In this document: in pieces, positions 24,575 to 62,014 of the stretch
Position numbering within the stretch: position 1 is the first letter of the stretch
Layout: each line of letters starts with the position of its first letter
From: Candidatus Poribacteria bacterium
GTDB lineage: Bacteria > Poribacteria > WGA-4E > PCPOR2b
Direction: 5' to 3'
Assembly: GCA_022826645.1 (NCBI GenBank)
Contig: JAJDUM010000103.1
Coordinates: forward strand, 1-64,000
DNA length: 64,000 bases
Notes under the pieces: model-generated
Told to the model about the DNA's origin: nothing
Seen by the model: the letters and a program-made list of their open reading frames with translations, nothing else
The model's database searches: none
Made by a program: the position numbers and the translations under genes

Positions 24575-25429
24575 TCATCGAGTCTGTTTCAGTATTGCCC
24601 ACGTTGTGGCAAGTTTGCCCGATGGAGAAACCGCGAAAATTGAGTTATCAACCCCTTTCCCAAGCCGTTCAACATCAGCTTGACTCAACGCAACGTTGAA
24701 AATGGCAAGATCATCTATGGCGTTATTAGACCACGAATCAAATCGCTCCGGGAACACCGCTCCAATATGTAGTGCGCGTCCCGGTGAGGGTTCTAATGCA
24801 ATCACTCGCTGACCATCGCGATGTTCGACCTCTTTTAATTCCCCATCAATATACATGGACGGATCTCTCTCCCTATCTTTAGCCACGACAACGTAGTGAT
24901 GCCACTGATCATCCTTTATCCCGTTTACTCCTTGGAATCCACCTTGATACCAGAAATAGAACATGTTGTTAAAAACCTTATGCAGCGCTATTCCAAAAGT
25001 GGGGCGTCCGTGCTGCCATTCTCCACCTTTTTCAAGAATAAAATAGGGAGCGATATCGGTCGCTTGCAAGCGAGGTGGCCTTTTCACCCATACTGAAATC
25101 GAAATGGCTTCATCAAGATCGAAATCCTCATGGTGTGGCACTTCCAAGTAATTTTTTCTTCCGGAATTAAACTCTACCGCTTTACCGAATTGCCCATCAA
25201 CCAGTGCAGGCTTATTCACCATCACCGCGTCATGACCGTTTCCAGAAACGTCCTCGACAAAAGGATCGTTATCCTTATTTCTTTCCGTCCCATCAAAAGT
25301 CCATATTGCAACCGCCGCTTCTAGAAGCTCAGGTCCTGTCAATCGGGCATGGCTTGTACCTGCCGACACCCAGTTTATGATAATTAAGCCGAGCACAATC
25401 CTGCCCAACCCCGTGATGAAGGTCTTCAT
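24575..25429 (-). CDS. secreted LamG-domain protein 3
   Basis: A 284-residue exported LamG protein, first of the tandem minus-strand set. Signal peptide is about residues 1-28 (IVLGLIIINWVSAGTSHA). The domain shows SVWVKRPPRLQATDIAPYF, KDDQWHHYVVVAKDR and IDDLAIFNVALSQADVERL, with the tail IFAVSPSGKLATTWAILK. Its similarity to LamG protein 2 indicates tandem duplication. AAGGAGG lies upstream of the ATG. No catalytic site is recognised. Confidence 0.9.
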   Translation of the reverse strand: MKTFITGLGRIVLGLIIINWVSAGTSHARLTGPELLEAAVAIWTFDGTERNKDNDPFVEDVSGNGHDAVMVNKPALVDGQFGKAVEFNSGRKNYLEVPHHEDFDLDEAISISVWVKRPPRLQATDIAPYFILEKGGEWQHGRPTFGIALHKVFNNMFYFWYQGGFQGVNGIKDDQWHHYVVVAKDRERDPSMYIDGELKEVEHRDGQRVIALEPSPGRALHIGAVFPERFDSWSNNAIDDLAIFNVALSQADVERLGKGVDNSIFAVSPSGKLATTWAILKQTR

Positions 25430-25592: not shown

Positions 25593-25802
25593 GTTTATGT
25601 TATCAAAACTGACTTTCCACAGGCTCTCCGAATCTTACAACGTTACGTAAAAATTGGATGCAGTTGTAGATCGGTTTTCTAACTTGACTACAACCTCTGC
25701 GCGACTGAAGTAGACTCAGATAGGAGCTTGGTCTACCGTCGTGGAATTTCTTGTAACAGCTCATCAGAGTCCAAAACCCATATTATAAGGAAGGATATTA
25801 CG

Positions 25803-26603
25803 ATGAAAAAAGGGCGATTAATCTCCATAGCCTTGGTTCTTGTATTTGTGTTCTCACTGACACACGTGGTTTTTGCTGCGCCAAAGAACTTCGCACTCAA
25901 ATTTGATGCAAAAAAGGATAGTGGTGAAAAAGGCACACGGGTCATTGTTGACCATAGCGAAGAGCTGAACCTCGCAGAGAAGTTAACGATCGAAGCGTGG
26001 ATTTACGCCACTGCCTTAGATTCCGGCGGCGGAAGAATGATGATTACTGGAAAAGCAGATACATGGATGCACGCTCTGCTCAACGATGGGGGTGCTTATC
26101 AAGGAGCGGTCAATGCTGCTCAGTGGAGTTGGGAAGGATCCGGCAAGGTAAGTTTAGAGAGATGGACACATGTTGCGCTGTCCTTTGATGGTCGTGCCTA
26201 CCTTCTCCACGTTGACGGTAAGTTGAAAGATGAAATTGAAGATCCAGGGAAGATTAACACCTCATTGTCTGATGTTTATATTGGTTGGCTTCCTCAGTGG
26301 AATGAAGCGTTTACTGGGCTAATCGATGAGGTCCGGATATCTAATATTCCCAGATACCCTGCGGCCAACTTTCCAAGACCGACGACCGAGTTTGAAGAAC
26401 GGGATCGCAATACCGTTCTCCTGATGCACTTTAATGAGGGCCAAGGTGGAGAAGCTAAGGATGCATCCGCTTTTGAGCATCACGGCTTAATTGATACTGC
26501 GACATGGGAAGAGGTGGCTGATGCCCCCTTTAAACCGTTAGCGGTCGAGCCGGGCGTAGGTAAGTTATCAACTACATGGGGCAAACTCAAACGTAAGTAT
26601 TAG
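25803..26603 (+). CDS. secreted LamG-domain protein 4
   Basis: A 266-residue exported protein diverging from the minus-strand LamG cluster. Signal peptide about 1-24 (ALVLVFVFSLTHVVFAAP). It is a LamG/laminin-G-like domain: LTIEAWIYATALD, ERWTHVALSFDGRAYLLHVD, and LIDEVRISNIPRYP. It is distant from the other three in the domain but keeps the tail VEPGVGKLSTTWGKLKRKY. The ATG with AAGGA upstream and signal peptide fixes the start; an earlier in-frame start is not needed. Confidence 0.88.
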   Translation: MKKGRLISIALVLVFVFSLTHVVFAAPKNFALKFDAKKDSGEKGTRVIVDHSEELNLAEKLTIEAWIYATALDSGGGRMMITGKADTWMHALLNDGGAYQGAVNAAQWSWEGSGKVSLERWTHVALSFDGRAYLLHVDGKLKDEIEDPGKINTSLSDVYIGWLPQWNEAFTGLIDEVRISNIPRYPAANFPRPTTEFEERDRNTVLLMHFNEGQGGEAKDASAFEHHGLIDTATWEEVADAPFKPLAVEPGVGKLSTTWGKLKRKY

Positions 26604-34713: not shown

Positions 34714-34796
34714 TAAGTTCATCACGCAACACGCGTTAAATCGGCACACTATTTGGACGTGGTTGTTGCTTGTGTATTAAACGGAGGATAAATCGA

Positions 34797-35867
34797 ATGA
34801 AACTTCAAATCAGTTTATGCTTTTTTCTTCTTCTGATTTGGACGATTACTGGTCTAGGCTGCGGTGAGGATTCATCCTCGACTTCTGTCGAGCCTGGCGA
34901 AGAATCCGAGCAAATAGTAGACTTAGAAGGAGAGGATAACTCGCAATCAGGAATGGTATCAGGAATTATCACTAACATCAAGACGGGGGAACCGATACCG
35001 GGGGTAACCATCAGTCTGTTAGGCAAGACGGTGGAAACCGATGCAGAGGGCAGATATGCTTTCACAGAGATCCGTTATTCAGATAGCCATAATTTGATCG
35101 TTATGGACCTTGATTACCAGCCCAAAATGAAGAAATTTAAACTTAGGACTGAACAGGTACAGTTGAATGTTCCTCTCTCTCCAAAGCTTGGTGCGGTGTC
35201 GGGGGTTATCACCGATGGCACAACAGGGAACCCGATCCCGGGCGCAACTATCACTCTATTGGATCAGATGCAAACAACCGAAATAGATGGTAGATATAAC
35301 TTTACGGGAGTTCCCTATTCGCAGACAATTAGTTTAATGATTACAGCTGCCGATTATCAGTCCAAAACCGAGAACTTTGAACTTAGGACGGGTCGCGTTG
35401 GAGTGAGCATTCAACTCATGCCCACGACGAATCCCGAGACGGAGATTCCTCAGTTCTTGGAACGCTTTTCCGCACTAATTGAGTCGTTGGATATAGGGAA
35501 ATTGAAGACAATCCAAGAACTCTTTTCGGAAACCTACGTTGCAGGGGATGATCCCATTACACTTCTTGGATTAGCGACAGGCGTTATTCCCGCAATGTTC
35601 GATGACGTTAATCCAACAATCACTAAAGTGTTTGGAAAGTACGATGCCCTCCAATTTGAGTTTAATAAAATTCAGGTGGAGGTGACTAATACACGCAAGG
35701 CATCTGCACGACTTACTCTACACATCATCAGCGAGGAGGGGGCGGGCCCCGACAAACCACGAGCCGAAAAAAGAGAGATTATTGTTGATTGTCAAATAGA
35801 TTTCCGCAAAGAAGACACATTGTGGAAAATCGTTTTTTGGCAACTTTTCAACGTAGAATTCCTTTGA
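34797..35867 (+). CDS. lipoprotein with two carboxypeptidase-regulatory-like domains
   Basis: A 356-residue exported protein. The N-terminus is a signal with a Cys at ITGLGC, a slightly atypical lipobox. Two tandem CarboxypepD_reg-like beta domains follow (about 50-125 and 130-210), each with TGxPIPG and TxxxGRYxFT. The C-terminal half (about 215-350) looks like an NTF2/SnoaL-like alpha+beta fold with FRKEDTLWKIVFWQLF. Such proteins often organise cell surfaces or bind sugars. Start ATG at 34797 has GGAGG upstream; the TTG at 34770 is not needed. Confidence 0.78.
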   Translation: MKLQISLCFFLLLIWTITGLGCGEDSSSTSVEPGEESEQIVDLEGEDNSQSGMVSGIITNIKTGEPIPGVTISLLGKTVETDAEGRYAFTEIRYSDSHNLIVMDLDYQPKMKKFKLRTEQVQLNVPLSPKLGAVSGVITDGTTGNPIPGATITLLDQMQTTEIDGRYNFTGVPYSQTISLMITAADYQSKTENFELRTGRVGVSIQLMPTTNPETEIPQFLERFSALIESLDIGKLKTIQELFSETYVAGDDPITLLGLATGVIPAMFDDVNPTITKVFGKYDALQFEFNKIQVEVTNTRKASARLTLHIISEEGAGPDKPRAEKREIIVDCQIDFRKEDTLWKIVFWQLFNVEFL

Positions 35868-38430: not shown

Positions 38431-38558
38431 GGGCGATAGCTCACAGACGAACAGACCCGCGCTCAATAGGGGTTCATTAAGACTGCCTCTGCATTCTGCG
38501 CCACGATACGATTGAAACCCGCATCACGGTCTGTTGCTTGTGCTATCGCCCTTTTTTT
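38431..38558 (+). ncRNA. predicted structured RNA or attenuator ahead of the AddA-like gene
   Basis: Outer arms GGGCGATAGC (38431-38440) and GCTATCGCCC (38542-38551) are perfectly complementary. A second pair nests inside (AACAGACC at 38450-38457 with GGTCTGTT at 38528-38535), and a third is nearly perfect (GGGGTTCA with TGAAACCC, one mismatch). The right outer arm is followed by seven Ts and then directly by the AGGGAGG ribosome-binding site of the helicase gene. This is a long-range hairpin ending like an intrinsic terminator. It matches no tRNA, SRP RNA or known riboswitch I could recognise. Confidence 0.5.
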
Positions 38559-38574: not shown

Positions 38575-41500
38575 GTGCAATTTACACAGAATCAAAAAAA
38601 AGCTCATGACCTCAATCGTCACATCAGTGTAACCGCTGGTGCTGGATCAGGGAAAACAGCGGTATTGGTCCACCGCTACCTTAAGATTCTGCTTGAAACA
38701 GATCTGCCTCCCAATCAAGTGGTTGCAATCACGTTCACAAGGAAAGCTGCGGCAGAGCTTAAGCAGCGCATTATCCAGGAACTTGACGTAAAGCTGGAGG
38801 AAAAACCTCGCAGTACACAATTACAGAGAATCAAGACCGGAATGCTCTCCGCACAGATCTCAACCATTCACTCATTTTGCGCGCGAATTCTGCGGGAATA
38901 TCCGGTTGAAGCGGGAGTGGATGCAGGTTTTGGTGAATTACAAGGGATACAACAGCGGTTGGCTCTCCATAACACCATTGATTCCACGCTCCGGGAAATT
39001 GCTAACCGTCCCGAAGAAGATGAGATACGTGAGAAACTGGTAGACTTGCTGCGCATTTTTGGCAAGAGTCAGCTCGAACAACACTTACACGAGTTGATCG
39101 ATCAGCGGGATGGGGTGGATCGCCTAATGCGCGGTTTATACAGCCGCACAGATTCAGAGGTGGTGGAGTATTGGCGCGAGCATGTACAGTCGCAATTATT
39201 TCGGAGTTTAGAAAATCAGTTCTCTGTCGGAAATTGGTTACGCTCTCTGGACAATGTCTTAGAAGTTGCTACAGGGAAAAATGCTTCAATAGTCCTAGGA
39301 CTGGTAGGGCTTATTTTACCACAAATGGCAATAGTAACGGTCATTTCGATTTTCCTCCAACTTGGTCCACAGATCTTCGCGGAAGATGGACCAATCAGCG
39401 AGAGGGAGGCCCTTGACTCACATGCCGAGACCGACACAACCATGGAGAATGTCGGTTTTCTTATTCGTGCAGCGAACTATTTCCAATCCTCTCCATCAGT
39501 TACCAACGCTTCAATAGCCTTAGAATTGCTGGCGTATATTGTTCCACAAGTGGCAATACTAACGGCTATTCCAACCCTCATCGAGCTTGCTCCACTGATC
39601 GTAACGAAAGACGGAAACATTAGCAAAAGAGATTTTCTTGGCTCAAAAACCGAGACTGACCCAATCCAGGAGGAGATTGATTTTCTTGTCCCCGCAGCAA
39701 ACTACTTCAAATCCTCCGCATCAATTACCGCTGATGATGAGCTACTTATTAGTGTGACACGCCCTTTGTTAGCTGTTTACGACGAGGTTCAACGTGCATA
39801 CGAACAACATAAAACCCAGACGGGACAACTCGATTTCGATGATCTTCAGATTAAGGTTAGGGATCTATTGCAGCAAGAATCTATCCATGAACAACTCGCC
39901 CAAAGATATCCTTATATCATGGTTGATGAGTACCAAGATACCGACCAGCTACAATACGAGATCCTCGACTTACTCGCTGTTATCAACAAGAATACCCGCG
40001 GAAAAAAACCCTCGGATTCTAAATTGGATAACCTGTTTATCGTTGGTGATCAGAAACAGAGTATCTATGGGTTCCGCGGGGCGGATGTGCGCGTATTTAA
40101 TAAAACACGACAGGATATAACCGACTTGCAGGAGGCACTCGGCGAAGACTTTTCTTGGGCGGAGCAGAAACTTGACGCAAGCGATTCAGAGAAACGCGGC
40201 GAGCTCCAATTCTCGGAAAATTTCCGTTTATTACGAAATCTCGTAGGCTTCGTCAATTCAGTTTTCGAGCCACTCATGAAGGGGCGAAATGAATTTGAAG
40301 TCAAGTATGAGCCGTTGGTCCAGGGTCGAATCGCTGATTCACATGGCGACGTAGAGCTGCTCCTCGGCTCAAAGGAAGAGACAGAGAGCGATTTGCAACT
40401 TTCCGCTGACGAATACGATCTGATTGTCGCCCGCATCCACCACTTAGTCAACACCGAGGAGACGATTTGGCTGGACACTGACGACGGTAAAACGCCCCGA
40501 CCTATTCACTACAGTGATATTGCCATCCTAATCCGCAGTCGGACGCACTTGCCGGAAATTGAATCTGCCTTAACCGAAGCAGAGATCCCATACAAAATCA
40601 CAGGGGGTATCGGATTTTATCAGTGTCAAGAAATTTATGACATTAGTAATTATCTGCAATTTCTCATAGATCCTACCAGCGACGTTGCACTCGCCGGAAT
40701 TCTTCGCGCGCCATTCTTCGGTGTGTCGGATGTAGAACTATATGAAATAGCACAGCCATCGTCCAAAAAGACATTCTGGGAGAAGGTCCAAGATTACCTC
40801 GCTCAACCAGATCAGTCTTCAACTCCTCTAATAGGTCATGCAGCTCAAATACTGCAGAGCCATCTCGAAATATGCCACCGTACTCCACCGAGCGAACTTA
40901 TTCGAAAAATCGTTAACGACACTGGAATAGTCGGGGTGCTTCCCGTTGGGAAGAACGGCGAACAACGGTGGGCAAATTATGAAAAGCTCTTAGGGATTGC
41001 AAGGGAGATTGAAAGATCGGAATCTACAAACCTCTTCGATTTCTTGGAACGCCTGAACCTACTCATTGAGGAAGAAGAGAGTGAAGGCCAAGCGACCACA
41101 CAATTGACAGCGGACGCTGTTGAGGTAATGACCATCCATGCGGCGAAAGGCCTTGAGTTTCCAGTTGTTATCCTTCCTAACCTAGATCAACGATTCAGAT
41201 ATGATCAAGAACCGTTCATTGACGATCGATTAGGTATTGGCTTTAGGCCCGCAAATCCAGAAAAAAACTACGAACAGAGCGATCCGGGGGCGACACAGTT
41301 GATGAGGGAACGTGCGAGAAACCGGACAGAGGCAGAGGAGCAGCGCCTCTTTTACGTAGCTACAACCCGCGCTCGTGATCATCTGATCTTGTCAGGAACA
41401 GCCGAGAAGATAGGAAATGCGCCGTGTTGGTTGAAGTGGCTGCTCAATGCTTTAGAAATTTCGGAAATACCTTCGGAGGACGCGGTTTTAAATCGGAAGA

Positions 41501-42303
41501 CGACCATTCAAGTCTTGTCGGGAGAGCAAACCACACAGGTCACCTTCGATCTTCCAATTCGAATCGTTAGACCTTCCAGCGAACTCGGTTATACTGAAGA
41601 AGGACCAGTCGCCCCGCTATCGCCAGCCGAATTTCCCGCCTTCCATATCGAACCGTTGCGTGCTGCCGCTGTTAGCCAAACCTTCTCCGTGTCGGATCTT
41701 ACGGCGTATACTCAGTGTCCAACGCGGTTTTATTTACAGCACCAGATTCAGGTGCCGCTATCGGAACTCCAATCCGAGGAATCCCCTGAGACTGCGCGTG
41801 AAGATGTTAATAGCATTTTGGACTCAAGAGTTAGGGAGATAGCGTTAGACGCAGATGAGGTTTACCGTGAACGGCATATTCACGCCGAAATTGGTTCTCA
41901 TATAGTCGACGGAATTGCAAATCGGCTCTTCAAAGACTCAGAGGGGATATGGCAGGTTATCAGCTACGAAACAGATGGAATTAATTGGGAAGAAATCGGC
42001 GATATAGCTGACTACTATCGACTACAGATTGAGCTATACGCCCTGCTAATCCATCGGCTCTATCCTGAACAGCAGGTCATACCGGTAACAATCTACTCAA
42101 CAGATCTCACCTTATCGCATTCAGTGAAGGTAACAAAGGAAGAATTAATAGATGTTGAGAGCGCATGGATAGAACGAATTGAGGCAATACAGGATGCTTT
42201 GAGTTCTGATGCAATCGGGCTGGGAAGATTTGAGAAGAATAGAGAACATTGTCGATTATGTCCCTATTTTGTTGATGAGGAGTGTATGGTCACCGATCAA
42301 TAG
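38575..42303 (+). CDS. AddA/UvrD-like helicase with tandem-repeat insert
   Basis: A 1242-residue superfamily 1 helicase related to AddA of double-strand-break repair. Helicase motifs: VTAGAGSGKTAVL (Walker A), VDEYQDTDQLQYEIL (Walker B), VGDQKQSIYGFRGADV, VMTIHAAKGLEFPVV and RLFYVATTRARDHL. Residues about 236-385, within the 1B region, are two 75-residue hydrophobic repeats not expected here. The C-terminal RecB-type nuclease region keeps Fe-S-like cysteines (C1048, C1226, C1229, C1237), but GxxD is GIAN and DYKT is SYET, so cleavage is probably lost. Start is GTG with GGAGG upstream. No addB gene follows. Confidence 0.88.
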   Translation: MQFTQNQKKAHDLNRHISVTAGAGSGKTAVLVHRYLKILLETDLPPNQVVAITFTRKAAAELKQRIIQELDVKLEEKPRSTQLQRIKTGMLSAQISTIHSFCARILREYPVEAGVDAGFGELQGIQQRLALHNTIDSTLREIANRPEEDEIREKLVDLLRIFGKSQLEQHLHELIDQRDGVDRLMRGLYSRTDSEVVEYWREHVQSQLFRSLENQFSVGNWLRSLDNVLEVATGKNASIVLGLVGLILPQMAIVTVISIFLQLGPQIFAEDGPISEREALDSHAETDTTMENVGFLIRAANYFQSSPSVTNASIALELLAYIVPQVAILTAIPTLIELAPLIVTKDGNISKRDFLGSKTETDPIQEEIDFLVPAANYFKSSASITADDELLISVTRPLLAVYDEVQRAYEQHKTQTGQLDFDDLQIKVRDLLQQESIHEQLAQRYPYIMVDEYQDTDQLQYEILDLLAVINKNTRGKKPSDSKLDNLFIVGDQKQSIYGFRGADVRVFNKTRQDITDLQEALGEDFSWAEQKLDASDSEKRGELQFSENFRLLRNLVGFVNSVFEPLMKGRNEFEVKYEPLVQGRIADSHGDVELLLGSKEETESDLQLSADEYDLIVARIHHLVNTEETIWLDTDDGKTPRPIHYSDIAILIRSRTHLPEIESALTEAEIPYKITGGIGFYQCQEIYDISNYLQFLIDPTSDVALAGILRAPFFGVSDVELYEIAQPSSKKTFWEKVQDYLAQPDQSSTPLIGHAAQILQSHLEICHRTPPSELIRKIVNDTGIVGVLPVGKNGEQRWANYEKLLGIAREIERSESTNLFDFLERLNLLIEEEESEGQATTQLTADAVEVMTIHAAKGLEFPVVILPNLDQRFRYDQEPFIDDRLGIGFRPANPEKNYEQSDPGATQLMRERARNRTEAEEQRLFYVATTRARDHLILSGTAEKIGNAPCWLKWLLNALEISEIPSEDAVLNRKTTIQVLSGEQTTQVTFDLPIRIVRPSSELGYTEEGPVAPLSPAEFPAFHIEPLRAAAVSQTFSVSDLTAYTQCPTRFYLQHQIQVPLSELQSEESPETAREDVNSILDSRVREIALDADEVYRERHIHAEIGSHIVDGIANRLFKDSEGIWQVISYETDGINWEEIGDIADYYRLQIELYALLIHRLYPEQQVIPVTIYSTDLTLSHSVKVTKEELIDVESAWIERIEAIQDALSSDAIGLGRFEKNREHCRLCPYFVDEECMVTDQ
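39280..39729 (+). repeat. two 225-bp tandem repeats inside the AddA-like gene
   Basis: Codons for NASIVLGLVGLILPQMAIV... and NASIALELLAYIVPQVAIL... begin repeats of exactly 75 codons each, 39280-39504 and 39505-39729. They share blocks such as LILPQMAIVT/YIVPQVAILT, ETDTTMENVGFL/ETDPIQEEIDFL and AANYFQSSPSVT/AANYFKSSASIT. Nucleotide identity is moderate, so the duplication is old and maintained. Confidence 0.85.
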
Positions 42304-61519: not shown

Positions 61520-61690
61520 ATGTGCAATGCGAGACATCAATCAGTTTATAGTGAATTATAAAAATATGTAGACACTTTCGCTCCCCATGTTTGGTAGGCG
61601 CAGTTACAAACAGCACCGGTACAGCGTGTCCAAGTAATTCTAAAGTTCACCATAATTAGTAAAATAAAGGCAACAGGAGAACTACTTATC

Positions 61691-62014
61691 ATGGAAATCA
61701 ATCCCGAAACAACTGAACTCAAAAATATGGTTCAAAACCTCAGCGATCTGGTGGTACAAGTGTCCAAAGATGTTAATCAAATGCGCGGTGAGTTGAACCA
61801 GATTAACGAGCGTCTCGGTTCGTTAGAAGGACGGATGAGTGCACTGGAAACACGACTTGAGACACGGATGAGTGCACTGGAAACACGGATGAGTGCACTG
61901 GAAACACGACTCGAAAGACGAATCACAGATGTTTTCAAGTGGATGGTCGGTATGATGGTGCCGGTCTGGATCACCCTCCTCGTGCTCATCATCACTCAGT
62001 TTACCAAGGGATAG
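61691..62014 (+). CDS. small coiled-coil membrane protein
   Basis: A 107-residue protein. Residues 10-78 form a heptad-rich coiled coil, including three copies of RMSALET-type units, followed by one hydrophobic segment (MVGMMVPVWITLLVLIITQF) at the end. It is a tail-anchored membrane protein of unknown role. AGGAG lies upstream of the ATG. It sits between the DUF1549/1553 and DUF1501 genes, four bases before the latter. Confidence 0.75.
   Translation: MEINPETTELKNMVQNLSDLVVQVSKDVNQMRGELNQINERLGSLEGRMSALETRLETRMSALETRMSALETRLERRITDVFKWMVGMMVPVWITLLVLIITQFTKG
61832..61906 (+). repeat. three 21-bp coding repeats
   Basis: CGGATGAGTGCACTGGAAACA occurs at 61832-61852, 61865-61885 and 61886-61906, the first two separated by a related 12-bp unit. 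Copies are identical and encode heptads of the coiled coil, so the number may vary between strains. Confidence 0.9.

Follow-up and report, generated by a model that had tools for sequence, protein, structure and literature searches.

The closest known counterparts of the locus studied here include the RecBCD and the AddAB enzymes. The arm domain of RecB lies near duplex DNA and is bound by gp5.9 and Gam (PMC9836394). AddA of the Bacillus subtilis AddAB (PDB 3u44, 4cei) has its domain order and helicase motifs in common with the protein reported below, and it holds a single segment homologous to the repeat unit at residues ~250-328, as counted from the printed alignment and assigned to the 1B region by position, before domain 1A resumes. 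In the window, the whole stretch of 64,000 nucleotides that was analysed from a Candidatus Poribacteria genome (G000), an AddA-like protein carries this segment twice, with hydrophobic first halves. It also differs from B. subtilis AddA in the substituted residues of its nuclease motifs and in a C-terminal CxxCx7C cysteine cluster. The likeness of the unit to the RecB arm (1B) of RecBCD is one of position in the 1B subdomain; RecB gave no sequence match over the unit. We know of no duplication of the RecB arm of RecBCD.

The GTG start of the helicase frame is preceded by a GGGAGG-like ribosome site, and a longer in-frame reading is possible from the TTG at 38512. The protein matches AddA above UvrD, PcrA or RecB, as evident from TIGR02785 being the top of 15 families and 3u44 the top PDB chain, and SF1A UvrD-like helicase motifs are present (PF00580, E=4.9e-58; PF13361, E=4.7e-37). 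The scores for TIGR02785 (addA_Gpos, 382 bits) and addA_alphas (331 bits) are under the NCBIfam equivalog cut-offs of 707.65 and 860.75, respectively, and the protein is therefore named AddA-like, a divergent relative and no equivalog by the NCBIfam rule. Every helicase motif is intact and the frame is open in three species. The intact motifs, together with purifying selection (dN/dS 0.12-0.18 over the helicase), make it very likely that the protein is an active helicase. The features of the locus are listed in Table 1.

Table 1. Location of the AddA-like helicase, its motifs and the repeat units in the window
Feature	Position	Strand	Remarks
AddA-like helicase, 1242 aa	38575..42303	+	GTG start; TIGR02785 E=6.2e-114; PF00580, PF13361; 3u44 E=6.6e-63
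Walker A (GAGSGKT), motif I	38638..38658	+	residues 22-28; read in translation; invariant in 19 aligned AddA
Repeat unit copy 1	39280..39504	+	residues 236-310; more derived copy; missing from single-copy relatives
Hydrophobic stretch of copy 1	39289..39363	+	residues 239-263; zero charged residues; KD19 2.48
Repeat unit copy 2	39505..39729	+	residues 311-385; nearest to single ancestral copy
Hydrophobic stretch of copy 2	39514..39606	+	residues 314-344; two Glu, three Pro; KD19 2.01
Walker B (VDEYQDT), motif II	39922..39942	+	residues 450-456; read in translation; acidic pair (DE) invariant
PD-(D/E)XK nuclease motifs, substituted	41920..41970	+	GIAN for AddA GIID; SYE for DYK; alignments with relatives and 3u44

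A RecB-type C-terminal nuclease domain was detected in the protein (PF12705, 32 bits). The acidic residues and the lysine of its site are replaced (GIAN, SYE), so that an intact D and (D/E)XK are both lacking. Other Poribacteria AddA display partial losses (INYERD, IDYETD, LNFITN), and IDYKTD is intact in one genome (G030). The alignments indicate that one nuclease in the AddA/AddB pair has decayed repeatedly across Poribacteria. The substitutions are not tied to the duplication, because related Poribacteria whose AddA has a single unit show them too (INYERD, IDYETD). An AddB-like frame of 1082 aa lies on another contig of the window genome (C53); it matches addB_Gpos at E=5.8e-20, below the cut-off, and the AddB chain of 3u44 at E=4.3e-5, and its nuclease motifs are intact (GRIDRI...DYKTG).

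Further features were recorded elsewhere in the window. Two divergent LamG-like secreted proteins are encoded at 24575-25429 (-) and 25728-26603 (+), and both C-termini read GKL(A/S)TTWxxLKxx, a possible tail signal common to the two. A lipoprotein-like protein at 34770-35867 has two tandem carboxypeptidase-regulatory-like repeats (SGIITNIKTGEPIPGVTISLL / SGVITDGTTGNPIPGATITLL). A short coiled-coil protein at 61598-62011, with a hydrophobic segment at its C-terminus, carries heptads like ETRMSAL, which are encoded by a 21-bp tandem repeat of 2.6 copies at 61855-61908.

The repeat units of the helicase are direct repeats of 225 bp each without a spacer, the period being exactly 225 bp. The two copies are 71% identical in DNA (ungapped) and 51% identical in protein over 75 residues without a gap, and copy 2 as query retrieves copy 1 at E = 4.7e-17, far beyond chance. 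The preliminary description had reported abutting repeats at 39280-39729; its coordinates are correct, and the motifs LILPQMAIVT, YIVPQVAILT and two AANYF are all found in the translation. It placed the repeats in the 1B region of an AddA-like helicase, with Walker A before and Walker B after them, which agrees with the TIGR02785 and 3u44 matches and the motif positions, 1B being assigned by position. An assembly artefact, which it had also considered, is ruled out as the source of the doubling, since the block is present in three independent assemblies: that of the window, that of a near relative (G003, Candidatus Poribacteria, JAJECO010000048.1) and that of G002. A foreign insert is likewise ruled out by the single-copy homologues across the order, and protein and DNA searches of the window's own genome found no second source of the unit.

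A profile built from 12 units located the unit inside AddA frames of 63 out of 85 Poribacteria genomes. Two abutting copies occur only in G000, G002 and G003, and the other 60 genomes with the unit have a single one. The same-genus genomes G001, G004 and G005 hold one unit (e.g., in G001, NAPKVQELTDQIQPDMEPQDAVLLLTEIAPLIVTQGGTISKRDFLGSGVDMDAVNEEIDFLVCAANYFRSLP) in place of the two of the window protein; their AddA proteins are 71-72% identical to the window protein outside the repeat, and matching sequence flanks the segment. A single orthologous segment that aligns end to end, as in these three, is also present in G007 of another genus. Furthermore, over the segment described above, B. subtilis AddA could be aligned to the single-copy AddA profile with good posterior confidence. 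These comparisons indicate that the unit normally belongs to AddA and that the anomaly lies in one extra copy. The proposal that the repeats were inserted thus holds for one copy, which is extra, and fails for the other, which is native and single in most relatives. The repeats had been taken for an insert of unexpected membrane-like modules, with a duplicated ordinary 1B domain as the contrary possibility; it is the latter that the sequences point to, for part of 1B. No orthologue of the window AddA was found in G006, G008 and G016; as G006 is 96% complete, its AddA may truly be lost. Another helicase of ~1060-1090 residues is held by G001, G007 and G008.

The hydropathy of the unit was examined in its first 34 residues. 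GRAVY values are 1.41-1.84 in all six duplicated copies; the single-copy forms range from -0.31 to 0.72, with 0.01-0.14 in the charged, amphipathic single units of G001, G004 and G005. Nearly all charge is lost from this part of both window copies. The Kyte-Doolittle (KD) 19-residue maximum is 2.48 for copy 1 and 2.01 for copy 2, whereas the 16 other presumed soluble proteins of the window that were checked reach at most 1.73; the repeats are therefore unusually hydrophobic, as had been described. Membrane tendency was judged by hydropathy scales, and real membrane segments of the window mostly give 2.2-2.9, a range that includes copy 1 and leaves copy 2 borderline at its lower edge. Helix a has a mean hydrophobicity of -0.43 to 0.02 and a moment of 0.45-0.59 in single-copy forms, and of 0.68-0.93 and 0.17-0.35, respectively, in duplicated copies. 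An amphipathic helix has become uniformly hydrophobic, with the polar face replaced in unchanged register, and anchor residues are kept in register through the hydrophobic half (NA..EL..I.P......A...L.E.APLIVT). A frameshift as the origin of this half is ruled out, the shifted frames scoring at chance and many containing stops; so is an inversion, for no match to the reverse complement was consistent across the 12 pairs, of which one came near z 3.4. The hydropathy values and the homologues together indicate that the hydrophobicity is real and derived. Because both copies share the hydrophobic state, the change most likely predates the duplication, or conversion carried it between the copies.

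The AddA tree calculated without the repeat is ((G000,G003),G002) with a support of 1.0. Trees of the units unite all three copy 1s in a single group; the copy 2s group together by DNA (support 0.86) and weakly by protein (0.20). As copy 1s cluster and, by DNA, copy 2s cluster too, one duplication before the split of the three species is the simplest reading. The 3' half of copy 2 retains 67-72% nucleotide identity to G001, G004 and G005, and copy 1 of the window 59-61%. Between G000 and G003, dN/dS is 0.36 for copy 1, 0.19 for copy 2 and 0.18 for the rest of the helicase; between G000 and G002 the value of copy 1 is 0.58. As judged from these ratios, the repeats are under purifying selection, which is looser in copy 1.

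Synonymous divergence (pS) of G002 from G000 and G003 is 0.34 and 0.26 in residues 176-427 or 292-427, compared with 0.61 and 0.56 outside. This low-pS block (39100-39855 for residues 176-427) covers the repeats, copy 2 included, and was reached by none of 200 permutations in a simple, post hoc test that assumes exchangeable codons. It does not appear to reflect simple constraint, because over most of its length G000 and G003 show an ordinary level of synonymous change; this disfavours synonymous constraint or an overlapping gene as its cause, and the overlapping frames are short (68-127 codons). The pattern suggests that this part of the AddA gene was swapped by recombination between the lineages of G002 and of G000/G003. 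Another possible exchange block lies at 41638-41925 (residues 1022-1117), where pS is 0.30 vs 0.60 in G000 vs G005; residues 1028-1099 give 0.09 vs 0.38 in G004 vs G005.

The probable explanation of these observations is that a native, helical 75-residue 1B segment of AddA was duplicated internally in tandem, giving a soluble helicase with an enlarged 1B arm in which the greasy faces are buried. In the ancestor of the window species, G003 and G002, the polar face of two short amphipathic helices (the first ~34 residues) turned hydrophobic, and the complete 75-residue unit was doubled once, in frame. The helicase would stay soluble and have an AddB-like partner whose gene lies elsewhere, and the doubled unit would serve as a larger 1B arm. 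Since the polar faces of the charged helix pair turned hydrophobic in both copies, the units may pack together or against a partner subunit, e.g. the AddB-like protein of C53. Copy 2 would retain the ancestral role, leaving copy 1 freer to change. AlphaFold models gave a confident 1A core and pLDDT below 50 for the 1B region (residues ~157-384) with both 34-row and 2-row alignments; the best Foldseek match of the 1A-1B model was AddA 4cei, resting on the confident 1A part.

The hydropathy of copy 1, typical of the real membrane segments of the window and unusual for a soluble helix, counts against a duplicated soluble arm and in favour of a membrane hairpin, in which residues 239-263 and about 314-338 would span the inner membrane and tether the helicase to it, an acidic linker of 50 residues lying outside. 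Doubling supplies an even number of crossings, so that both halves of domain 1A can remain cytoplasmic, copy 1 has 25 residues without charge, and all three species keep the hydrophobicity. The charge distribution fits the positive-inside rule loosely, with two Lys/Arg and eight Asp/Glu in the linker and four Lys/Arg in the stretch after segment 2, but that stretch is also net acidic (4 vs 7). Moreover, copy 2 is weaker, with KD 1.8-2.0 and a summed insertion cost of 3.8-4.3 kcal/mol (unweighted scale). A proline lies halfway along each segment, and the homologous segment of the relatives is charged and amphipathic. No membrane-spanning AddA or RecB came up in a full-text literature search, and nothing relevant on a duplicated or membrane-bound AddA emerged from the literature searches. 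Such a hairpin is unlikely, and the wider proposition that a clade of Poribacteria made a DNA-end-processing helicase membrane-tethered by doubling a 1B segment with a transmembrane-like first half, as an even-numbered hairpin, is decidedly so. A protein-packing role of the repeats is favoured over membrane anchoring.

A selective cause compatible with the duplicated 1B arm would be an arms race, in which the segment was altered, doubled and passed between lineages as an escape from a phage inhibitor. Phage inhibitors of RecBCD bind to the 1B arm, the part that contacts incoming DNA, the low-pS block that includes copy 2 suggests recombination, and dN/dS of copy 1 is raised between G000 and G002. 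However, dN/dS nowhere exceeds 1, no phage inhibitor is known for Poribacteria, the unit is equated with the RecB arm by position only, and the block test has the post hoc character and codon assumption already given. This cause is very unlikely. Decay of the AddA gene, with the duplication as neutral junk, would accord with the substituted nuclease motifs, the less constrained copy 1 and the three genomes without an AddA orthologue, though two of these are fragmented assemblies. The intact helicase motifs, the frame open in three species, the low dN/dS of the helicase and the retention of both copies and of their hydrophobicity since before the three-species split had already disfavoured decay, which is highly improbable.

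The duplicated 1B segment represents a remodelling of AddA, a known enzyme, in a single small group of Poribacteria. Duplication of a native segment is combined here with an unusual hydrophobic shift; as an AddA with a doubled segment of its own, the protein is a modest variation. It offers a datable natural experiment on change of the 1B arm in helicases of the AddAB/RecB type, a soluble, charged helix pair having become hydrophobic and doubled while the helicase was kept. If the hydrophobic faces do bind a partner or the membrane, this would be an unrecognised way of positioning break repair in these bacteria.
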